A stretch of 64,000 nucleotides of DNA from Agreia sp. VKM Ac-1783 (GTDB taxonomy: Bacteria > Actinomycetota > Actinomycetes > Actinomycetales > Microbacteriaceae), in NCBI RefSeq assembly GCF_900177765.1, contig NZ_FXWI01000002.1:806001-870000 (forward strand), written 5' to 3'. Each line of letters starts with the position of its first letter. Positions within the stretch are counted from its first letter, which is position 1. Below the pieces are notes generated by a model. That model worked only from the letters and a program-made list of their open reading frames with translations, had not been told where the DNA came from and searched no databases. Below are positions 32,864-43,887 of the stretch, piece after piece. Position numbers and translations under genes: made by a program.

Positions 32864-33640
32864 TCACGAAACGAGGGCGGCGCTGGTGACGAGCACGAAG
32901 GTGAAGCCAATCCAGTCGTTCAGGATGTGAGCTCCGGTCGAGACGAGGATATTCTTGGTGCGAATGAACGCGAGGGTGAGCAGGAGCCGGGCGACACCGA
33001 TCCCGACGAGCGCCTGAATCACGTTCCAGTCGTAGGTGGGCAGATGGGCCGCCCCGAAGTAGACACCGATCACGAGCCAGGCGATGATGATCGACGTCTT
33101 CCGGCTGAGTTTTGCCTTGGTGTAGAAGAAATACATCAGGGCGAGGAAGGGCAGGATGCTGAACAGCTCCTCGCCGAGCAGCTGAATCGCGGTGCCGACG
33201 TAGAAGGTGATGATCTCCGGTGCTCCACCGGAGGCCAGCCCGTCGGCTGCCGTGTTGGCGGTCGCGCCGAAGATCGCCCGCACGAGTGCGCCGAGAATGA
33301 ACGAGACGACGAAGGTTACGAGGCCGTACACCAGCATCGCAACCCAGTCGCCGCCGGTGGGTTTCCGGAAGATCGCCGTCCAGTGTCTTCCGGCCAGAAG
33401 GATGAACGCGATGAGCATGATTGCGGTGAACAGGGATCGCGGCAGAAGCAACTCGACATTGTTTGCCGCGGGGATGGTTGTCAGGGCGACGAACCCGACA
33501 ACGCAGGCCAGGATGATCAGCACCCATTTCCAGGTGGGGATCTCGACGGGCTGGCCGTTGTAATACGGGAAGTCGCGGTCGTCCCGGCGTTCGAGAAACC
33601 GTCCGAATCGATCGTTGCGGTTGTGTGTCGTTGTCGTCAT
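32864..33640 (-). CDS. CPBP/Abi-family membrane protein 1
   Basis: A 258-residue protein with a charged N-terminus (RFGRFLERRDDRDF) and about seven TM helices, of the CPBP (CAAX protease and bacteriocin-processing) family. Expected motifs: EE in LLGEELFSI (the usual EExxxR lacks its Arg here), FGAAHLP and AHILNDW with the metal-type His residues. The missing Arg may mean altered or absent protease activity. ATG 33640 is open with weak site. Converges on the regulator gene. Function in the cell is unknown; family members include bacteriocin-immunity proteins. Confidence 0.8.
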   Translation of the reverse strand: MTTTTHNRNDRFGRFLERRDDRDFPYYNGQPVEIPTWKWVLIILACVVGFVALTTIPAANNVELLLPRSLFTAIMLIAFILLAGRHWTAIFRKPTGGDWVAMLVYGLVTFVVSFILGALVRAIFGATANTAADGLASGGAPEIITFYVGTAIQLLGEELFSILPFLALMYFFYTKAKLSRKTSIIIAWLVIGVYFGAAHLPTYDWNVIQALVGIGVARLLLTLAFIRTKNILVSTGAHILNDWIGFTFVLVTSAALVS

Positions 33641-34391: not shown

Positions 34392-34763
34392 ATGGTTGGT
34401 CAGCGTCCGGGCGGCGTCGTTCTCATCGCAATACTCGCGTGGATCGGCGCAGTGCTTCAGATCGTTTCCGGAATTCTGGTCCTCACCGGAGTACTGAACC
34501 CGGAAGGAATTTCGAACGAGACCGCCTGGATCGCAATAGTCGTCGGCGTCGCCTCCTTCGTGGTCGCCTTCGCGCTATTCGGCGGCAGCAACATCGCTCG
34601 GATCCTGGTCGCTATCTCCTTCGTGTTCTCCTTCATCTCCGCGATTGTTCAGTTCATTGCTCACCCCGCGAACTTCATCGCCACGATCCTCGCGGCGATC
34701 GTCGCCCTGATCGGGCTTGTGTTGCTCTATACATCGAAGTCGAATGCCTACTTCAGCCGATAG
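34392..34763 (+). CDS. Small four-TM membrane protein (123 aa)
   Basis: A 123-residue protein with four hydrophobic segments (GGVVLIAILAWIGAVLQIV; WIAIVVGVASFVVAFALF; ILVAISFVFSFISAIV; ILAAIVALIGLVLLY) separated by short loops. ATG 34392 follows GGGGAG; a TTG six codons upstream has none. Such proteins are common in actinobacteria and have no assigned function. It precedes a second CPBP gene by 77 bp on the same strand. The 238 bp before it hold no gene. Confidence 0.7.
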   Translation: MVGQRPGGVVLIAILAWIGAVLQIVSGILVLTGVLNPEGISNETAWIAIVVGVASFVVAFALFGGSNIARILVAISFVFSFISAIVQFIAHPANFIATILAAIVALIGLVLLYTSKSNAYFSR

Positions 34764-34840
34764 ATACCCAGGGCCACGAAGAAGTGGCCGCACAACTCGG
34801 CGAGGAAACACAACGAATAGCAAGGAAGAGGGGAAGTCCG

Positions 34841-35602
34841 ATGAGTGAGACTTTGAGGGTTCGACCGAAGGTGTGGATCGGTCTGGTGATCTACGTCGGC
34901 TACGCCGTCGTCGTTTACAGCATCCAAGCCCTCTCCGGGGTGCGCTACGACGAACTCGGCGAGAGTGGCAGCAACCTCTTCTTCGGCGGAGGCCTCTCCC
35001 TCATCATCGCCGCGGTCCTGCTTGCGATCACCACCAGTCTCCTCGGCTGGTGGAAGCCCGCCCTCTTCGACCGTCACCGGAGCGTGCGCTGGCCGATCAT
35101 CGCACCGATTCTGATGGCCATCGCCTTGATCTTCAACCTCATCTCCACCGATTGGGCGGCCTACGACGGGGCATTCTTCGCGGCCTCGCTCGTCATCCTG
35201 CTCGTCGGTTTCACAGAAGAGCTCACGACCCGCGGTCTTCTCCTCACGGCCCTTCGCAGCCGTCTCAGCGAAGTCTGGGTCTGGCTACTGACCTCCGCCC
35301 TCTTCGCAGTCATGCACCTGCTCAACGCCACCAACGGCCAAGCGCTCGGCCCAACCATCCAGCAAGTCGTCTTCGCCTTCATAGCCGGAACGGTCTTCTA
35401 TATCGTCCGCCGCGTCACAGGCACCCTCATTTGGGCCATGGTGCTCCACGGACTCTGGGACTTCTCCACCTTCGCAATCACCCACGGCACCCCAGGACCA
35501 CTCGCTGGCATCGGGGCCACCATCGAGCTGATTGCCGGCGCCCTCGCCCTCATCAGCGTCGCCTTCGTCATCCGAGGCACGAACGAGCGCACCAACGCAT
35601 GA
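34841..35602 (+). CDS. CPBP-family intramembrane metalloprotease 2
   Basis: A 253-residue membrane protein with about eight TM helices and complete CPBP motifs: EExxxR in FTEELTTRGLLL, the FxxxH motif in FAVMHLLN and the HxxxD motif in MVLHGLWDF. These place two Glu and two His at the zinc-type site of Rce1-like proteases. ATG 34841 has GGGGAAG upstream; the open frame extends further but is not gene-like. Followed by the AlaRS paralogue after 21 bp. Substrates are unknown. Confidence 0.88.
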   Translation: MSETLRVRPKVWIGLVIYVGYAVVVYSIQALSGVRYDELGESGSNLFFGGGLSLIIAAVLLAITTSLLGWWKPALFDRHRSVRWPIIAPILMAIALIFNLISTDWAAYDGAFFAASLVILLVGFTEELTTRGLLLTALRSRLSEVWVWLLTSALFAVMHLLNATNGQALGPTIQQVVFAFIAGTVFYIVRRVTGTLIWAMVLHGLWDFSTFAITHGTPGPLAGIGATIELIAGALALISVAFVIRGTNERTNA

Positions 35603-35623: not shown

Positions 35624-37057
35624 ATGGACGCTCGGCAAATCCGCAACTCGTATCTGACGTACCTCGAGGAGAGGGGGCATACCGTCATCGAGCGGGCGCC
35701 CCTGGTTCCGAAGGGTGACACCTCTACCCTGTTCAACGGGAGCGGCATGCAATCGCTGCTGCCCTACCTGCTGGGGCAGGAGCATCCGGCTGGCGTGCGT
35801 CTCACCGACAGCCAGCCGTGCGTGCGTGCGCAGGACATCGACGAGGTCGGCGACAACCGGCACACGACGTTCTTCGAGATGCTCGGCAACTGGTCACTCG
35901 GCGACTACTTCAAAGAGACGCAGATCCGCCAGTTCTACAGCTTCCTGGTCGACGTGGTCGGCCTGGACCCCTCGAGGATCTACGTCACGTGCTTCATCGG
36001 CGATCCGGCCAACGGAATCCCACGCGACGACGAGGCGGCATCCATCTGGGCCGCAGTCTTCGCTGAGCGCGGCGTCTCGAACGGTGTGGCCGAGATCGGC
36101 TCGCAGGCAGACGGCGACGCTCGGGGCGTCAAGCCGGGCGAACGAATCTTCTTCTACGACGGCGGCGAGAACTGGTGGTCGCGAGGCGGATCGCTCGAGG
36201 GCACGCCGATCGGCGACCCCTGCGGGCCCGACAGCGAGGTGTTCTACGACTTCGGCGCAGAGCATCAGGATGCGTCGTACGGCCTGGCACATCCGGCCAG
36301 CGACGGCGGGCAGTTCATGGAGATCGGCAACCAGGTCTTTATGCAGTACCGCCGCCGCGAGGACGGCTCATTCGAGGAACTCACCAAGCGCAACGTCGAC
36401 TTCGGCGGCGGCCTGGAGCGGATCGCAGCAGCATCGATCGGCTCCGACGACGTGTTCCGCATCTCGTTGCTCTGGCCCATCATCGAGTCACTGCAAGCGC
36501 TGACGGGACGCCGCTACGAAGACGAGACGGCGGCGATGCGAATCATCGCCGATCATCTCCGCGGGGCAACGTTCCTCGCGGTCGACGGCGTGCGCCCGTC
36601 GAACAAGGAGCAGGGCTACGTGATGCGACGCCTGCTGCGCCGCGCCATCCGATTCGCGCTCTCGCTGGGTCTGTCCGAGAACTTCTTCTCCACGGTCGTT
36701 CCCGTGATCGCCGACCTGTACGCCGCGGACTACCCCGAGGTAGCCGCCTCGCGCGACGAAGTCATCGCCGTGCTCGTAAAAGAGGAGACCGCGTTCCGGC
36801 GCACTCTCACGAGCGGGCTCCGCGCCCTCGCCGAGTACCAGGGGTCGACATTGACCGGGCTCGACGTGTTCCGCCTCTCCGACACCCACGGATTCCCGAA
36901 GGAGCTCTCGATAGAAGAGGCTCGGCGCCTCGGCATCGACGTGGTCGAGGACTGGGAGTCGGGTTTCGCCGCCGCGTTGGAGGAGCAGCGCGCCCGCTCG
37001 CGCGGTGCCACACGGCTCGGCGCAGCCGGCCTGCCAGGCGGCAGCGCACCCGCCTGA
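35624..37057 (+). CDS. Alanyl-tRNA synthetase paralogue lacking editing and C-terminal domains
   Basis: A 477-residue protein matching the first half of AlaRS, which is usually near 880 residues. It retains the class II catalytic core: FNGSGMQSLLPYLLG, the motif 2 region RHTTFFEMLGNWSLGDYF and VDFGGGLERIAAAS, plus the tRNA-recognition helical region (ADHLRGATFLAVDGVRPSN, GYVMRRLLRRAI). The editing domain (HxxxH) and the C-Ala oligomerization domain are absent. So it could charge tRNA-Ala but not proof-read. The housekeeping alaS is not in this window. Convergent with the lipid aminoacyltransferase gene, which suggests dedicated Ala-tRNA supply for lipid alanylation; other roles (free alanyl-adenylate transfer) are possible. 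ATG 35624 is 21 bp after the CPBP stop. Confidence 0.87.
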   Translation: MDARQIRNSYLTYLEERGHTVIERAPLVPKGDTSTLFNGSGMQSLLPYLLGQEHPAGVRLTDSQPCVRAQDIDEVGDNRHTTFFEMLGNWSLGDYFKETQIRQFYSFLVDVVGLDPSRIYVTCFIGDPANGIPRDDEAASIWAAVFAERGVSNGVAEIGSQADGDARGVKPGERIFFYDGGENWWSRGGSLEGTPIGDPCGPDSEVFYDFGAEHQDASYGLAHPASDGGQFMEIGNQVFMQYRRREDGSFEELTKRNVDFGGGLERIAAASIGSDDVFRISLLWPIIESLQALTGRRYEDETAAMRIIADHLRGATFLAVDGVRPSNKEQGYVMRRLLRRAIRFALSLGLSENFFSTVVPVIADLYAADYPEVAASRDEVIAVLVKEETAFRRTLTSGLRALAEYQGSTLTGLDVFRLSDTHGFPKELSIEEARRLGIDVVEDWESGFAAALEEQRARSRGATRLGAAGLPGGSAPA

Positions 37058-37103
37058 CACCCGGCCGTGGGCCGGGCCGACCGCGCGGCCCTGCCGCATC
37101 CGG

Positions 37104-39164
37104 TCACTCGCGGCGAAGCATGTCGATGCCGGCACCCGCGAACTGACGCAGGGTGGCATTGGGCAGGAACGCGCGGGTCAGCGCCGCACTGATGCGGGTG
37201 AGGTCGCCCTCGTCGCGGTAAAGGAGATAGATCGGCTCCGTGCGCGGATTGAACTTCTGCTTGAACCGATGCAACGACGAGAACCCGTAGACCGGTTCGA
37301 GGATGCCGCTGAGCTGGCCGAGCAGGTGCGCGATCGTGCCCTCGTCGTCGGTCGCCTGATGAGCCAGCGGTGCACCAGACAGCGAGACGATCAACGCGCC
37401 CTCCTCGGCAAAGGTGCGCGCCGAGGACCCGATCAAGAACTCCATGACCGCACCGAAACCGCCCTCGCGCCGCCGCATCAGATCGAGAGTCCAGCCCGTG
37501 TGCGTTCCCTCCGGCCCGTAGATCGGCAGCCAGCTCAGGAAGCCGTCGATGTCTCCGTTGGGCGACACGGCGAGGGCGAGCCGCACCTCGGGGTCCTCCG
37601 CCTCCTGCAGGGTGCCCAACGTGAACCTCATCTCCGGCAAATCCTTGTCACCGACCCACGACTCGGAAATGGCGCGCAGCTGCTGGCGAATCCCCCACGA
37701 CTCCTCCGCCAAGGTGGTCATGCGGAACGTGATGCCCTCACGGTCGGCCTTGTTGATCGCCGTCCTGACGTGCTGCCAACTCTTGCCCGTGAAGGCCAGG
37801 CCGGGGAGATCGACGATAGTGTCGTCGGCGATGATCAGGTCACGCCACCCGTCGGGAAGACTGTCGCGGGTGTGCTGGCTCGAGCTGAAAAAGCACGGGA
37901 TGAGGGAATCGCGCTCGGCCGCGCCGACGAATTCGGCGATGCTCGCTGCCGCCGCGGACTCAGGCCCGAGCGGGTCGGCGAGCACCAGTGCCACGCCGAC
38001 GTGCTTCTGATACGGGATGATTCCCTGTTCGGTCCGGAAGTACTCCATGCCCTCCCACGTCGCCATCCACGACAGACTGCCACCGCCGTACTGCGTGATG
38101 ATCTGCCGCGCGTCGTCGGCGGTGGGAGCCGTGTCGCCGCGAGGATCAGTACCGGCACCGAGCGGCCGCCGCCGGTGGGAGTGGAAAGCATGTCGGGTCG
38201 CGATGAGGTACAGCAGGAATGCGGCCCAGAGCACCGCCGTCGCGAAGAACACATCGACATCGCCCAGGCCCAGCGGTAGCTCCACGGGGTCCACAAATGA
38301 CAACCCGAGATACAACGCGGCGATGACGACGTTCACAACGGCCCAGATGACGGAGAGCACCCATGCCCAGTGGCGGCCGAGCCGCAGGCCGTTGGTCACG
38401 ACGAGGATCACCACGGCATCGATGGTGGCTTCCAGCCACGGGCCGTTTCCGGGCACCGTCGGGCCGAACGGTCCATTTGTCGGCAACAGCAGCGTCAATA
38501 CCTGTATGACCCCGAGGGCGAGACTCGTGGCGAAGGCCAGGAGCCTCCGTTCACGGATACTTGCCCGTTCGATATGGAACGACCTGTCGACGGCGAGCAC
38601 GAAGATGACGGCAACCACGTGCTCCATATCGGCGAGCGTGCCGAAGAACAACACACCGATAGCGGCGTAGCCGACGACGATGAGCCATCCCCGCTGACGC
38701 CACGGAGACGGGAACAGGCTGACGCAGGCCGCGAAGCACGCCATGGTTCCGCCGGACGGGCCGACGTCGAGCATGCCCGCGAGTTCGATGACCCACGGCC
38801 ACGGAAGCAGGCTCGCGCCCCACAGGAACGCGGCTGTGGCCAGGATGGCGATGAGTTGGCCGGCCCCGAAGTAGACCAGCGCGACCCGGCTCCCCCGTCG
38901 CCATTCCAGCAGCCCGACCCAAACGAAGCCCACCATCGCAATGAGATACGCCCACGGATGGATGACCAGAAACGTACCCGTGATCGGCGTCCACCAACGG
39001 CCTTCCTGAAATGCCGGCAGCCCATAGGCGACGGACTCCCACCACGGCTGCTGCGGCGTCGGCACCCAGAGACCCTGGCCGACTACCCCGGCCACGAGGA
39101 CGACGGCGACCAGACTGAGCGTCGCAGGTATGCGGGTGATGACGGATCGGACAGACAAGGTCAC
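37104..39164 (-). CDS. Rhomboid-like membrane domain fused to MprF-type aminoacyl-lipid synthase (DUF2156)
   Basis: A 686-residue bifunctional membrane protein. Residues about 10-200 form a rhomboid-like six-TM domain with GPSGG (Ser137) and a His182 in DMEHVV, the sort of Ser/His pair rhomboid proteases use. Residues about 200-330 add further TM helices. From about 340 to the end is the DUF2156/LPG-synthetase domain (FFSSSQHTRDSLPDGWRDLIIADDTIVDL in part; MRRREGGFGAVMEFLI; YGFSSLHRFKQKFNPR), which transfers an aminoacyl group from tRNA to phosphatidylglycerol. GTG 39164 has a perfect AGGAGG; a GTG overlapping the aspD stop is also open. Last gene of a four-gene operon with aspartate/alanine enzymes, suggesting alanine as the transferred residue (inference). 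Confidence 0.85.
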   Translation of the reverse strand: MTLSVRSVITRIPATLSLVAVVLVAGVVGQGLWVPTPQQPWWESVAYGLPAFQEGRWWTPITGTFLVIHPWAYLIAMVGFVWVGLLEWRRGSRVALVYFGAGQLIAILATAAFLWGASLLPWPWVIELAGMLDVGPSGGTMACFAACVSLFPSPWRQRGWLIVVGYAAIGVLFFGTLADMEHVVAVIFVLAVDRSFHIERASIRERRLLAFATSLALGVIQVLTLLLPTNGPFGPTVPGNGPWLEATIDAVVILVVTNGLRLGRHWAWVLSVIWAVVNVVIAALYLGLSFVDPVELPLGLGDVDVFFATAVLWAAFLLYLIATRHAFHSHRRRPLGAGTDPRGDTAPTADDARQIITQYGGGSLSWMATWEGMEYFRTEQGIIPYQKHVGVALVLADPLGPESAAAASIAEFVGAAERDSLIPCFFSSSQHTRDSLPDGWRDLIIADDTIVDLPGLAFTGKSWQHVRTAINKADREGITFRMTTLAEESWGIRQQLRAISESWVGDKDLPEMRFTLGTLQEAEDPEVRLALAVSPNGDIDGFLSWLPIYGPEGTHTGWTLDLMRRREGGFGAVMEFLIGSSARTFAEEGALIVSLSGAPLAHQATDDEGTIAHLLGQLSGILEPVYGFSSLHRFKQKFNPRTEPIYLLYRDEGDLTRISAALTRAFLPNATLRQFAGAGIDMLRRE

Positions 39165-39199
39165 GTCGCGCCTCCTGAGTCTCGAGAGAGTGTTCGCGT

Positions 39200-40843
39200 T
39201 CACGTCATTCTTCCCGACAGGGCGCTCTGCCACTCGTCGACATACTGCATCGCCACCGCACGAACACTCTTGCCGATCTGCGCGTACTGCACGTCGCGCA
39301 GGTTGGCGAGCGAGATCCGGATGGACCACTCCGGTCCTTCGAACCCGCCGCCGTTGAGCAGGATGATGCCGGTCTGCTCTGCGAGTCGGAACAGGATGTC
39401 GGTCGGCTCGTAGTTGGCCACGAGGAAGTCAGCGAACTCGGGGGCCCAGTGCCTGCGCGCGTAACCGAGCAGGTCGAGCTCGACGTAGTAGCCCACCCGA
39501 TTCGGGTCGTCCGGGAACGTCACGGTCATACCGTCGGTGAGCATGGTCAGCCGCCGCTCTATCAAGCCTTGAACGGCCTTGCGGTAGTGGTTCTCGGTGT
39601 CGAGGACGCAGTAGGACGAGAAGAGCAGCATCATGCACTGCTGCGGCAGCGACAGGCCGGCCGTGTGGTTGAGGGCGACGGATCGGCTGTCTGCCACGAG
39701 TCGGTCGATGAGGCGGATGCCGCGGGGCTCGAGCGAGAGCGACCCGTACCGGCGGTCCAGTTCCTCGGCCTCGTCTTCACCGAGCGCCGCGATCTTCTCG
39801 TCGAAGATGTTGTCCTGGTTCACGGCGACGACGCCGAGGCGCCACCCTGTCGCGCCGAAGTACTTCGAATAGGAGTACACACCGATGGTGTTGCGAGGAA
39901 GCTCACTCAACAGCGAGCGGAACCCGTCGATGAAGGTGCAGTAGACGTCGTCGGTGATGATCGTCAACGCGGGATTGTGCTCGCGCACCACGGTGGAGAG
40001 CTGCTCCATCGTGTCGTCTGAGATGCGCACCGACGGCGGGTTCGAGGGATTGACGACGAAGAGCGCCTTGATCGACGGATCGCGCAGACGATCGATCTCC
40101 TTCCGGGGATACTGCCAGAGGTTCACGCCCCGGGAGTCGACGTCGCTCGCGGCGAGGTGCACGACGTCGAAGTCGTAGTCAGAGAGATGAGGGATCTCGA
40201 GGTAGGGCGTGAAGATCGGCGTCATGATCGCGATCCGGTCGCCCTTGGAGAGGATCTTATTTTTGATCAGCGAGTCGAAGATGTAGCACATCGCCGCTGT
40301 TCCGCCCTCGACGGCGAAGAGGTCGAACGGTGTCGCGGGTTCGATACCGGCACACAATTCCTGCACGAGGTACCGGTGAGTGATCGCCTCGGCGTGCCGG
40401 AGCATCCGATCGGGCTCGGGATAGTGGTCCCCGATCACGGAGTCCGCCAGCTCCCAGACGAACGAGTCGGGTGAGAACCCGAGTCTGTCGATGCCGTAGT
40501 CGAGGGTGCGGCGCAGGAGATCGGTTCCGGGCAGCGACTCGTTCTCCGTGAGCCATCGCGAGAACCGGTCGGCGATGCCGTCTTTCTCGGGGACTCCGAT
40601 CAGCTCGCGATCCCATTCCCTGTTCTCGCGACTGACGGTCAAGGCGAACTGCCCGAGCGAGAAGAAGGCCTCGCGCGGGGTCGACGCGATGAAATTGGGA
40701 TTTCCGCGACCGGCATTGAGCATCTGGAATGCGGTGCGGGATTCGTGCTCTCCGGCGATGCGCTGCAGCTCGGCCTTCAGCTCGAACGGCGACAACGTCT
40801 GCAGCCGGGCTATCTGCTCGCGGGAGATGCTGGACATCGGCAT
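39200..40843 (-). CDS. aspD: Aspartate 4-decarboxylase (AspD)
   Basis: A 547-residue PLP enzyme of the aspartate 4-decarboxylase group, which converts L-aspartate to L-alanine and CO2 (and has transaminase side activity). It is longer than ordinary aminotransferases, as AspD proteins are. The PLP Lys is about 327 in YSYSKYFGATGWRLGV; NPSNPPSVRI and DDVYCTF are substrate/PLP-binding motifs. ATG 40843 follows GAAGGAG. 16 bp after aspT, forming with it the AspD-AspT couple known from lactic-acid bacteria, where aspartate/alanine exchange plus decarboxylation removes protons and yields proton-motive force. Confidence 0.92.
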   Translation of the reverse strand: MPMSSISREQIARLQTLSPFELKAELQRIAGEHESRTAFQMLNAGRGNPNFIASTPREAFFSLGQFALTVSRENREWDRELIGVPEKDGIADRFSRWLTENESLPGTDLLRRTLDYGIDRLGFSPDSFVWELADSVIGDHYPEPDRMLRHAEAITHRYLVQELCAGIEPATPFDLFAVEGGTAAMCYIFDSLIKNKILSKGDRIAIMTPIFTPYLEIPHLSDYDFDVVHLAASDVDSRGVNLWQYPRKEIDRLRDPSIKALFVVNPSNPPSVRISDDTMEQLSTVVREHNPALTIITDDVYCTFIDGFRSLLSELPRNTIGVYSYSKYFGATGWRLGVVAVNQDNIFDEKIAALGEDEAEELDRRYGSLSLEPRGIRLIDRLVADSRSVALNHTAGLSLPQQCMMLLFSSYCVLDTENHYRKAVQGLIERRLTMLTDGMTVTFPDDPNRVGYYVELDLLGYARRHWAPEFADFLVANYEPTDILFRLAEQTGIILLNGGGFEGPEWSIRISLANLRDVQYAQIGKSVRAVAMQYVDEWQSALSGRMT

Positions 40844-40859
40844 GAGTGGCTCCTTCGTG

Positions 40860-42575
40860 TCAGGCGGCGATGACGGCGACGACGACGGCGCCGCCGATGG
40901 TCAGAACGATGTTCCCCACGGCGTAGGGAATGGTGAACCCGAGAAGGGGGATGCTGCTGCGGGCTTTCTCGCGCAGGGCACCTACGGCCGCCGTCGTCGT
41001 CAGGGCACCCGCGAGCATGCCGAGAATGATCACCGGTTCCGTCTTGCGGAACATGTACCGCCCGAGCACGGTCATGACGATCAGCGGGACCAGGGTGACC
41101 ACCACGCCGGCCAGCAGCAGGCCGGCGCCGTAGTCACGGATGCCCTCGATGAATCCGGGTCCGGCATCGATGCCGACGATCGCGACGAACATGGCAAGTC
41201 CCACGGTTTCGAAGAACCATTGGGCGCCTGGCGGGATCTGCCCGAACGTGGGGCGCTTCGACCGCCGCCATCCGAGCAGCAGCCCCACCAGAAGCGCCCC
41301 GACGCTCGACGTGAGCGAGAGGGGGATGTCTCCGACGACAAGGGTCGGTATCCCGATCAGGGCGCCGACCGCGATACCGAGGCCGATCGTGACGATATCG
41401 GTCTTGGGATCGGTTCGTTCCGGCTGGCCGATAAGCGGGATCACCCGTTCGAGAAGCTCGAAAGGACCTTGAACGCGAAGCTCGTCGCCGGAGCGGAGAA
41501 CCGTATCCGGCCTGACGGGGATCGGCTGGCCGCCGCGGGTGATCCGGGTGAGGAAGATCCGACGGGACCTCGGATGCTTCCTCATATCGGCGACGGTCAT
41601 CCCGATGACGTTCTTCTTGGTGACGACGATGCTGAGCTCCTCGAGAGGGAAATCGAGGAGCTCCTCATCGGCCCTCTCGACAGCCGTCGTCACGAGCTGG
41701 CGCTCGATCAGAACGGCCGGAGGACCGGCCACCACGATGACATCGCCAGCCGACAGCACATCGTCGGGGCCGGGATCGATGATGCCGCCGCCCCGCCGCA
41801 TCCGTGCGACGTACAGTCCGGATACGGCGCTCGCCGCGACCCCGGCCTCGAACTCGCGCACCGACGTGGATGCGAATGACCGACTCAGCTCATATGCGCG
41901 GCGGACGACCTTCGGATAGGCGCTCGTGACATCGGCCAGCTCCTCCGTGAAGCCGAGCCGCGACTCGAGATCCCGTGAGGCTGCCGCCACGTCCCGGATC
42001 CCGAGGAGGCGAGGGGCGAGCAAGGAGATGTAGAGGGCGGCGCCGAGCGTTCCGAAGATGTAGGTGACGGCGTAGGCGACCGGAACGAGATCGCTCCAGG
42101 CCTGCACCGTCGCGCCATCGGCCGGGAGGCCCGAGATGGCATCCTGGGCGACGCCGATGATTGCGGACTGCGTCAACGCGCCACTGGCCAGCCCGGCTGC
42201 AACCCCGGGGTTGAAACCGAGCACGAGGCTGATGCCGATCGCCGTGGCGAATCCGACGGCAGCCATCAGCAGGGCGAAGACGGCCTGCGGCAGGCCTGTT
42301 CGACGCAGCCCCGACACGAACTGCGGGCCGAGCTTGTAGCCGAGCGAGAACAGGAACAACAGGAAGAAGGTCTGCCGCATGACGGGCGCCACCTGAAGGT
42401 CGCCCCCGACGACGGCCCCGAAGATCACGCCGACCAGCAGTGTCGAGGTCACCGTTCCCAGGCCGATACCGCGTACGGTCACCCTGCCGAGCAGAAAGCC
42501 CAGGCCGAGCGTCGCGAACACGACGATCTCCGGATGTGCCACAAGCGTGTCGTGCGCCCCCTGCATCACGTTCAC
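40860..42575 (-). CDS. aspT: Aspartate:alanine antiporter-type transporter (AspT/AAEx family)
   Basis: A 571-residue membrane transporter of the AspT/YidE/YbjL family. The TM halves (about 15-170 and 390-571) flank a cytoplasmic region with two TrkA-C-like domains (about 205-370; e.g. GDVIVVAGPPAVLIERQ and TVLRSGDELRVQGPFELLE). Family-typical GVAAGLASGALTQSAIIG and GMLAGALTTTAAVGAL are the repeated substrate-path motifs. Placed 1 bp after the esterase stop and 16 bp before aspD, so the AspD-AspT pair is strongly supported. It should import aspartate in exchange for alanine, if orthologous. Confidence 0.9.
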   Translation of the reverse strand: MNVMQGAHDTLVAHPEIVVFATLGLGFLLGRVTVRGIGLGTVTSTLLVGVIFGAVVGGDLQVAPVMRQTFFLLFLFSLGYKLGPQFVSGLRRTGLPQAVFALLMAAVGFATAIGISLVLGFNPGVAAGLASGALTQSAIIGVAQDAISGLPADGATVQAWSDLVPVAYAVTYIFGTLGAALYISLLAPRLLGIRDVAAASRDLESRLGFTEELADVTSAYPKVVRRAYELSRSFASTSVREFEAGVAASAVSGLYVARMRRGGGIIDPGPDDVLSAGDVIVVAGPPAVLIERQLVTTAVERADEELLDFPLEELSIVVTKKNVIGMTVADMRKHPRSRRIFLTRITRGGQPIPVRPDTVLRSGDELRVQGPFELLERVIPLIGQPERTDPKTDIVTIGLGIAVGALIGIPTLVVGDIPLSLTSSVGALLVGLLLGWRRSKRPTFGQIPPGAQWFFETVGLAMFVAIVGIDAGPGFIEGIRDYGAGLLLAGVVVTLVPLIVMTVLGRYMFRKTEPVIILGMLAGALTTTAAVGALREKARSSIPLLGFTIPYAVGNIVLTIGGAVVVAVIAA

Positions 42576-42576
42576 C

Positions 42577-43887
42577 CTAACCCCCTAGTTTCCAATGATC
42601 CGCGATCAGCCCGAGCCCCTTTTCGAAGACGTATGACCAGGTGGTCGCGTCATGACCGCTGCCCTGCGCTTCGATGTAGGTGGCGGTCATCCCGGCGGCC
42701 TTCGCGTCGGCGTACAGCTTCTGCACGCCCGGCAGGAAGCCGCTGTCGTTGCTGCCCACGCCGAACACGGCGAACGTGTCGGTGTACGGGGCGTGCGCGG
42801 CCATGATCGCCGCCGGATACGCGTCCGCGTAGGCAGCTGGGTCTCCGCCGAACCCCTGATCGATCGTGGTCTGCTTGTCACCCAAGGTCGGGAACTCCTC
42901 CCCCGAGGCATCGAGAATCACGCTGAAGAGTTCCGGGTGGGCGGCACCCAACTGAATGGAGCAGGTTCCCCCCTGCGACAGTCCGCCGATCCCCCAGCCG
43001 CCAGGGTCATCGAGCACCGGAAGGGTCGAGCGGATCCATTCCGGCACGTCGACCGTGAGGTAGCTCGCCGAATTGCCCAAGGGAGAATCAACGCACATCG
43101 GATTGCTCGAGGGGTCGCCGAGATGATCGGGCGACACCACGATCGGAGCAAGTCCCTGGTGCGCGGCTGCGTACGCGTCGAGACTCTGCTGCAGCTTGGC
43201 CGTCTCGAGCGGCGCCGGCGGGCTGCCCGGTTGGCCTGAGAGCATGATGAGCACGGGCAGTTTCGGCGGGTTCGAGGTGAGGGCTGCCGGAGGCAGATAC
43301 ACGACAGCGGGGCGCGCGGGAAAGCCAGACACCGTGGCCGGGATGGTCGCCTCGCCGACCACCCCGACCTTGGGCAGATCCGCGGGTGCGGTCCAGCCCG
43401 CGATTGTTGGCTGCGTGTCGGGATCGGGCCGTGCGATCTCGGGAAGACGCGAGCCCGTGTAGGTGCTGAGACCCAAGGCACTGCGAACCGTCTGGTACTG
43501 CCCGAAGTCGATATTGATACCCATCGCCGAAGTCGCGACGAAGAGGACGACCGAGAGGATCACCGCGATCACCCGGCGCCACGTCGAACGCCAGAGCGAT
43601 GCCAGGGCGACCCCGATACCTGCGAAGCCGCCAGCGATCCAGGTGCGGGAGACCGGGGTGAGGTCGACACCGAAGAGGTCGAGGTCGTCGGACAGCGACC
43701 AGGTCAGTCCCACGCCAAGGGCAGCGCCCGCCACTGCACCGATGACGGCGACCAGAATCCAGCGCGGCCGCCGCCACCGTCGACTCGGCCGGATGGTGAT
43801 GAGCAGAAGAAACGCCACTGCGGCGATCGCGAAGACCGCGACGACCAGAGGACCATCGAGGAGGCTGAGGCTGAGGAGGTCGTTCAT
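42577..43887 (-). CDS. Membrane-anchored alpha/beta-hydrolase esterase
   Basis: A 436-residue protein with four N-terminal TM helices (about residues 9-130) and an extracytoplasmic esterase-D/mycolyltransferase-like domain. Nucleophile Ser lies in GLSQGGTCS, an oxyanion-type region in VLIMLSGQPGSP and the catalytic-type His in GSGHDATTW. ATG 43887 is chosen; the long upstream extension in that frame lacks TM or gene character. First gene of the operon with aspT, aspD and the MprF-type gene. In other bacteria an alanyl-PG hydrolase is encoded beside the alanyl-PG synthase, so removal of alanine from lipid is a reasonable guess. A generic esterase remains possible. Confidence 0.82.
   Translation of the reverse strand: MNDLLSLSLLDGPLVVAVFAIAAVAFLLLITIRPSRRWRRPRWILVAVIGAVAGAALGVGLTWSLSDDLDLFGVDLTPVSRTWIAGGFAGIGVALASLWRSTWRRVIAVILSVVLFVATSAMGINIDFGQYQTVRSALGLSTYTGSRLPEIARPDPDTQPTIAGWTAPADLPKVGVVGEATIPATVSGFPARPAVVYLPPAALTSNPPKLPVLIMLSGQPGSPPAPLETAKLQQSLDAYAAAHQGLAPIVVSPDHLGDPSSNPMCVDSPLGNSASYLTVDVPEWIRSTLPVLDDPGGWGIGGLSQGGTCSIQLGAAHPELFSVILDASGEEFPTLGDKQTTIDQGFGGDPAAYADAYPAAIMAAHAPYTDTFAVFGVGSNDSGFLPGVQKLYADAKAAGMTATYIEAQGSGHDATTWSYVFEKGLGLIADHWKLGG

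Follow-up and report, generated by a model that had tools for sequence, protein, structure and literature searches.

A short alanyl-tRNA synthetase of Saccharibacteria type beside an MprF-type gene in Agreia: a candidate route for placing alanine on a membrane lipid

Background

Why would an actinobacterium that encodes a full-length alanyl-tRNA synthetase (AlaRS) keep a second, shortened one next to a gene for a lipid-modifying enzyme? The question is raised by a locus of Agreia sp. VKM Ac-1783 (Microbacteriaceae), studied here in a window of 64,000 nucleotides (positions 806,001 to 870,000 of contig NZ_FXWI01000002.1, assembly GCF_900177765.1; coordinates below count from the first letter of the window). 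The shortened enzyme, AlaRS-short, is encoded opposite an operon for an MprF-type aminoacyl-lipid synthase, an aspartate 4-decarboxylase (AspD), an AspT-like exchanger and a membrane-anchored esterase. On balance we consider it probable that this locus is a dedicated route putting alanine on a membrane lipid, in which an editing-free synthetase would supply the alanyl-tRNA for lipid alanylation.

Results

Layout of the locus

AlaRS-short (477 amino acids, aa; 35624..37057, plus strand) converges with the MprF-type gene (686 aa; 37104..39164, minus strand), the two being separated by 46 bp. The minus-strand operon runs in the order esterase, AspT, AspD, MprF-type, with intergenic gaps of only 1, 16 and 35 bp. 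All five frames are intact and have a GC content of 0.63-0.67, compared with 0.634 for the window. The initial annotation had described this operon converging on a truncated AlaRS, and the arrangement was confirmed. The start of the MprF-type gene was set at GTG 39164 instead of 39329, where the longest open reading frame begins inside aspD, because an orthologue starts at the former position and AGGAGG lies in front of it. Elsewhere in the 3.76 Mb genome a full-length AlaRS (885 aa) and two further DUF2156 proteins are encoded. A scan for terminators and promoters between the two convergent genes returned none, and neither the window nor eight related loci contained a tRNA-Ala gene. None of three proteins matched a PADLOC defence family, and all 57 records of a plasmid search were below 60% identity.

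AlaRS-short has kept the aminoacylation residues and lacks an editing domain

The sole Pfam match of AlaRS-short is PF01411 (positions 1-432 of 552, 362 bits). The protein consists of the aminoacylation and tRNA-recognition domains, with no match to the editing domain tRNA_SAD and no C-Ala domain. Its TIGR00344 score of 366.6 bits lies below the equivalog cut-off of 457.05, and it is 35% identical to the full-length AlaRS of its own genome (tblastn). The protein could be aligned with the AlaRS of A. aeolicus, and a related form from genome G476 with that of E. coli (3hxu chain); G and L numbers are our handles for genomes and loci. In a domain scan, tRNA_SAD was absent from all three actinobacterial short forms and present in all four long forms covered.

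Residue conservation was read from an alignment of 160 AlaRS sequences, 24 short forms among them. Equivalents of E. coli M46, R69, W170, V204, D235, the motif-3 Arg and D400 are kept in every short form, and that of N303 in 23, the exception being G476. We take these E. coli residue numbers to mark the positions for alanine, for ATP and for the Asn/Asp pair that reads G3:U70. AlaRS-short has the class II core, the alanine and ATP residues and the Asn/Asp readers of G3:U70 expected of an alanyl-tRNA synthetase. In the active site the motif DTGM is changed to DFGG; as most Saccharibacteria sequences of the alignment share this change, it appears to be ancestral rather than a sign of decay. Orthologues share 95-96% identity within the genus (three further genomes) and 61-88% elsewhere in the family. 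The intact frame, the kept residues, the different clade and these conserved orthologues ruled out that AlaRS-short is the host AlaRS in decay. A separate 432-aa shortened AlaRS-like frame, 34% identical, was noted in G049 (L042, 9283-10536); its further match is interrupted by stops.

AlaRS-short is nested among synthetases of the candidate phyla radiation

Among the matches seen, the closest one outside the actinobacteria was the sole AlaRS found in a Saccharibacteria metagenome-assembled genome (MAG), a protein of 635 aa with tRNA_SAD present, which is 69% identical over query positions 1-465. A tree was built from 57 rows picked from the 160 extracted sequences. In this tree the canonical actinobacterial AlaRS stand far from the short forms (100/100), and the 24 short forms occupy three places, namely clade A, clade B and the G476 sequence. 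Clade A comprises 15 rows (the group of the window's family) with Subtercola boreus, plus Brachybacterium, and joins one row each of Saccharibacteria and Patescibacteria (100/99). Clade B, with Rhodococcus, Williamsia, Pseudonocardia and one genus of the window's family, joins a row titled only 'bacterium' that itself stands among rows of the candidate phyla radiation (CPR; 100/97). The G476 sequence sits on a long branch and its placement is unsure. A single group of clades A and B, a clade named after the tree had been seen, was rejected by the approximately unbiased (AU) test (p 0.007).

By its position in the tree, AlaRS-short is thus of Saccharibacteria/CPR type, nested among CPR synthetases, and no copy of the host enzyme. 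It had initially been called a paralogue; in the light of the tree it did not arise by duplication. Since an editing domain is present in rows of the tree beyond the short groups (all four that were scanned), the simplest reading is that the gene was captured and then shortened on at least two occasions, with the direction of transfer deduced from the nesting. Saccharibacteria/CPR-type bacteria are known as episymbionts of actinobacteria.

In Brachybacterium massiliense (L237, 8367-9809) the gene for AlaRS-short has a low GC content at third codon positions (0.62) and adjoins a transposase-like gene; it is perhaps a recent arrival.

The transferase resembles AlaDAGS

The C-terminal GNAT domain of the MprF-type protein (residues 353-649; 37218..38108, minus strand) covers the DUF2156 model PF09924 completely (1-298 of 298, 212 bits), as expected of a tRNA-dependent aminoacyl-lipid synthase. 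In an AlphaFold2 model computed from 17 sequences (pLDDT 83.5) this domain matched the alanyl-phosphatidylglycerol synthase (A-PGS) 4v35 with Z 28.5 and the lysyl-phosphatidylglycerol synthase (L-PGS) 4v36 with Z 28.7, the range for L-PGS and A-PGS domains of the PDB being Z 28-30. The score for the bifunctional-MprF equivalog NF033480 was 150.4 bits at a cut-off of 600, and judged by its sequence the transferase is not of the MprF flippase type.

Residues 9-197 (38574..39140, minus strand) were modelled as a rhomboid fold, with GlpG 6pj4_A as a match (Z 15.7, 3.2 Å over 164 residues). At the sequence level PF20401 (Rhomboid_2) matched weakly (E <= 0.1) in 5 of 17 homologues, and Pfam rhomboid models found no match in the window protein and scored below cut-off in both homologues for which scores were listed. 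The rhomboid fold of this membrane domain is accordingly a prediction of the model. Ser/His motifs like those of rhomboid proteases (GPSG, EH; motif only, alignment A2) occur in the window protein and are missing from some homologues, for which reason the domain is taken as a lipid-handling scaffold. Among the papers listed by a search of the PMC open literature, none named a rhomboid fold in these DUF2156 synthases.

The corynebacterial relatives termed AlaDAGS combine a six-helix membrane domain with a GNAT domain and make alanyl-diacylglycerol, as described in the excerpted text of PMC10580965. The same paper works with a C. glutamicum strain lacking pesT and alaDAGS, which it calls deprived of the Ala-DAG/Ala-PG synthesis gene, and proposes a transferase step from diacylglycerol (DAG) to phosphatidylglycerol (PG). 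The small membrane domain plus GNAT domain of the window protein fits this arrangement, in a comparison of architecture and of the description in that paper. Because of this resemblance and the modelled rhomboid-fold domain, alanyl-diacylglycerol and alanyl-PG are equally likely products. The initial annotation had the DUF2156 protein move alanine to PG, which is not the default lipid for an AlaDAGS-like enzyme.

AspD, the exchanger and the esterase

AspD (547 aa; 39200..40843, minus strand), predicted to convert aspartate to alanine and CO2, exceeded the equivalog cut-off of TIGR03801 (435.1) with a score of 752.5, as did the homologues of G203 (751.6), G476 (478.1) and Pseudonocardia (477.3). 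The window protein matched PDB 2zy2 with E 1.7e-148. The neighbouring AspT-like aspartate/alanine exchanger (571 aa; 40860..42575, minus strand) contains PF06826 and TrkA_C in two stretches each. It scored above the cut-off of the duplication-domain model TIGR01625 (132.8 vs 71.95) and below that of the AspT equivalog TIGR03802 (514.8 vs 546.95).

The esterase (436 aa; 42577..43887, minus strand), a membrane-anchored alpha/beta-hydrolase of family PF00756 and a PesT candidate, has four predicted N-terminal helices and a GxSxG motif (GLSQGG). Its structure model matched feruloyl esterase, S-formylglutathione hydrolase and antigen 85, and the modelled fold would suit either hydrolysis or transfer. 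PesT is presumably the enzyme of the DAG-to-PG transfer step. The initial annotation suggested that an anchored esterase could remove alanine; the enzyme may transfer it instead. A second DUF2156 synthase beside an esterase, here 64% identical to that of the window, was observed on contig C3 of the same genome (G000; L044, 8786-12323). At L077, L078, L242 and L243, too, an esterase adjoins or lies close to a DUF2156 synthase; the pair thus occurs with neither AlaRS nor AspD next to it.

AlaRS-short, the MprF-type gene and AspD recur together

An evenly sampled set of 299 genomes of the family was searched for AlaRS-short (E <= 1e-72) and for the MprF subfamily (E <= 1e-90). AlaRS-short was present in 23 genomes, the MprF subfamily in 40 and both in 16 (Fisher p 6.6e-11). 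Counted by genus, the association persisted (6/8 against 7/77, p 9e-5). The two genes adjoin each other in 8/23 genomes, convergently in G000, G002, G007, G080, G203, G251 and G292 and in tandem in G116; in G004 they are also neighbours. AspD was found in 4/299 genomes, all of which carry AlaRS-short (p 2.7e-5) and the MprF subfamily (p 2.8e-4); two of the four, G230 and G274, belong to one genus, and the AlaRS match of G274 is partial (query 1-156). In G203 the window's order AspT-AspD-MprF is found at one place and an AlaRS-MprF pair at another, and all five kinds of gene are scattered in G203, G230 and G274. The core of AlaRS-short, MprF and AspD thus recurs, whereas all five genes stand together in the window alone among the loci examined.

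In an even sample of the phylum, AspD was detected in 7/396 genomes and a clear short AlaRS in 3/392 (G000, G170, G476). G377 and G585, where the contig ends right behind the match, and G499, where the match reaches the contig end, were not counted as short; nor was G779, of the same order as G476, where a 431-aa AlaRS frame runs to the contig end. MprF was adjacent in three of ten AspD loci (window, G203, G476) and AspT in five. In G476, which belongs to another class by its kinship label, MprF and AspD form a tandem and AlaRS-short is divergent; the 1.3 kb that separate it from MprF contain one frame. That frame (L072, 13056-13853, minus strand) encodes a membrane-protein-like product of 265 aa, possibly a further part of the lipid system.

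A signature pattern for the short AlaRS matched 30 of 116 loci, all of them short forms of these clades and none canonical-only. Applied to a named collection it returned at least 117 loci, seven of them actinobacterial by title. An MprF-type gene was found near the AlaRS in three of these at least 117 listed loci, all three actinobacterial, and stretches of about 19-20 kb added none (3/7). Pseudonocardia sp. SCN 73-27 (a MAG) holds AspD, AlaRS, MprF and esterase in one block, while AlaRS, MprF and esterase are clustered in P. sulfidoxydans, as are esterase, MprF and AlaRS in Williamsia soli. Esterase-MprF pairs occur in Williamsia, Pseudonocardia, Rhodococcus and at the contig C3 locus of the window's genome. 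The AlaRS-linked MprF proteins do not form one clade (AU p 8e-6), and the two genes lie in convergent, tandem (G116) or divergent (G476) layout, most linked cases being convergent. With more than one MprF lineage and three layouts, chance neighbourhood explains the link poorly; from these sequences it appears to have arisen repeatedly.

Upstream of AlaRS-short the window encodes two CPBP/CAAX (Rce1-like) membrane proteins (32864-33640, minus strand; 34760-35602, plus strand), the latter ending 21 bp before AlaRS-short. No CPBP/CAAX homologues were found beside the orthologous AlaRS in G002, G004 and G007.

Discussion

From the gene identities, the operon layout, the recurrence of AlaRS with MprF (and with AspD or the esterase), the capture of AlaRS on more than one occasion and the retained active-site residues, all read from sequences and models, we infer a pathway whose reactions, amino acid, lipid and role for the esterase would be as follows. 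AspD would make L-alanine from aspartate, fed in this genome by the AspT-like exchanger. AlaRS-short, captured and deprived of its editing domain, would charge tRNA-Ala apart from the full-length AlaRS of translation. The GNAT domain would then move alanine from the tRNA to DAG or PG held by the rhomboid-fold membrane domain, and the anchored esterase could either pass alanine on, for instance from DAG to PG, or remove it. Owing to the loss of editing, Ser or Gly may also be put on the lipid. In its full evolutionary form the proposal is tentative, and we regard it as possible, if somewhat doubtful: actinobacteria would have captured the single housekeeping AlaRS of Saccharibacteria/CPR type at least twice, perhaps three times, removed its editing domain and made it a private source of alanyl-tRNA for a lipid aminoacyltransferase of rhomboid fold. 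Alanine would likewise come from a private source, AspD, giving an aspartate-to-aminoacyl-lipid pathway that is insulated from translation and, for lack of editing, may yield seryl- and glycyl-lipids too.

Several observations weigh against a dedicated lipid route. In 15 of the 23 family genomes AlaRS-short lies away from this MprF subfamily, and seven of those 15 lack the subfamily, with other DUF2156 genes present. In Rhodococcoides fascians (L234) and Rhodococcus sp. G-MC3 (L236) it is found between genes which we take to be cobN-like and cobG-like, and in Brachybacterium massiliense it is present where no DUF2156 match was obtained. Conversely, 24/40 genomes with the MprF subfamily are without AlaRS-short, and 7/10 AspD loci, some on short contigs, have no adjacent MprF. 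G476 has the sole clear short form in its order (168 genomes) among the matches listed (10 at E <= 1e-78). Its AlaRS has Ala at the Asn position for G3:U70, and the motif-3 Glu, kept in 22/24 short forms, is absent in two. Esterase homologues are common (37/50 genomes), so their presence tells little. The fold of the GNAT domain is equally similar to alanyl- and lysyl-PG synthases, so that the amino acid is not told apart, and the Fisher p-values of co-occurrence ignore kinship. Because of the solitary copies and partner-less genomes, AlaRS-short is seen as mobile and not bound to this MprF partner.

This mobility is the strength of the main rival, in which AlaRS-short is a spare or inhibitor-resistant AlaRS, serving translation or acting against alanyl-sulfamate-type inhibitors, with its lipid-gene neighbourhood incidental. 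Solitary copies in many genomes, one of them without DUF2156, the foreign origin and the kept aminoacylation residues all suit such an enzyme, and AcmD is an extra AlaRS giving self-resistance in the excerpts of PMC12945691. We nevertheless judge it unlikely, given that more than one lineage of MprF is linked to it, in three layouts, that all four AspD genomes of the 299 carry AlaRS-short, and that repeated shortening with loss of editing would be odd for an enzyme of translation. Even less credible is that AlaRS-short is itself a transferase that charges no tRNA, like the truncated AlaRS-like AcmF, with which it shares its domain content of aminoacylation and tRNA-recognition domains alone. 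According to the part of PMC12945691 describing it, AcmF has the replacements N219Q and D232E and is without the Asp-plus-Asn pair for G3:U70. AlaRS-short keeps N236, D259, N327 and D420, taken as the equivalents of the residues lost in AcmF. With the charging and G3:U70 residues in place this candidate was rejected as highly improbable.

The remaining alternatives concern the supply and the identity of the amino acid. AspT and AspD might form a unit of their own, serving acid tolerance, proton-motive force or the use of aspartate, with no tie to the lipid gene beyond the common operon; such a unit would be compatible with a lipid route for the other genes. AspT-AspD pairs without MprF in the stretches seen of G230 and G274 (contigs of 6.6 and 10.7 kb) and of G427 speak for it, as does AspT not having been found in the Pseudonocardia and G476 clusters. 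Against it, AspD has MprF or AlaRS-short close by in three arrangements spread over four genomes (window and G203; G476; Pseudonocardia), and all four AspD genomes of the family sample contain both AlaRS-short and MprF; we find it rather doubtful. The coupling of acid resistance to lipid alanylation suggested in the initial annotation finds little backing, AspT being the least conserved component and adjoining five of ten AspD loci. A lipid carrying serine or glycine instead of, or besides, alanine would require tRNA-Ala mischarged by the editing-free AlaRS and accepted by the transferase. The distribution of tRNA_SAD among short and long forms is in line with this, and tRNA-Ala that AcmD has mischarged with Ser or Gly is accepted by AcmF in the excerpted PMC12945691. 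The adjacent AspD, however, points to alanine, and we consider such a lipid quite improbable.

Compared with known systems, the proposed alanine route comes close to LysX of mycobacteria and corynebacteria, in which, according to the consulted passages of PMC2922099 and PMC10580965, an MprF-type GNAT transferase acting on lipids likewise has an aminoacyl-tRNA synthetase paralogue dedicated to it. In LysX the MprF-type domain is fused to a lysyl-tRNA synthetase (LysRS), whereas the window has separate convergent genes, a synthetase that is an AlaRS of CPR type and, in some loci, an added gene for making alanine. AlaDAGS and PesT of Corynebacterium (Smith et al. 2015, as cited in PMC10580965) likewise pair a DUF2156 synthase of short membrane domain with a putative esterase; the excerpts of PMC10580965 mention no AlaRS or AspD with them. 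VlmL/VlmA also employ a dedicated synthetase paralogue, a seryl-tRNA synthetase (SerRS), and an MprF-like transferase, but the amino acid is serine and the acceptor isobutylhydroxylamine, not a lipid; fungal fusions of aspartyl-tRNA synthetase (AspRS) are a further case of a synthetase dedicated to an MprF-type transferase (PMC2922099, in excerpt). The ascamycin genes AcmD/AcmE/AcmF likewise cluster an extra AlaRS, a truncated AlaRS-like protein and an alpha/beta-hydrolase; there a nucleoside sulfamate serves as acceptor, the charging residues kept in AlaRS-short are missing from AcmF, and the excerpts name no DUF2156/MprF protein (PMC12945691).

Among the papers listed by a capped search of the PMC open literature, mostly judged by title or the opening of the abstract, none was about an AlaRS dedicated to lipid aminoacylation, a CPR-type origin of one or AspD/AspT with an MprF-type gene. 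The AspT-AspD pair of Tetragenococcus exchanges aspartate for alanine and decarboxylates aspartate, contributing to acid tolerance; the window pair would carry out the same exchange and decarboxylation, and shares its operon with a lipid aminoacyltransferase. The locus probably represents a lipid-decorating system of which no description was found. LysX and VlmL are precedents for a synthetase that serves an MprF-type transferase; the alanine version, the CPR-type origin and the link to AspD did not turn up among the papers listed.

Lipid aminoacylation and translation share charged tRNAs, and a separate, editing-free synthetase would show how the two are insulated and which amino acids reach the membrane. 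If the proposal is true, alanine joins the short list of lipid systems with a synthetase of their own, as in LysX, here extended to substrate supply by AspD. A gene would also have passed from CPR-type bacteria to actinobacteria and acquired another role there, and with this defined gene set one could test what the poorly understood alanyl-diacylglycerol does.

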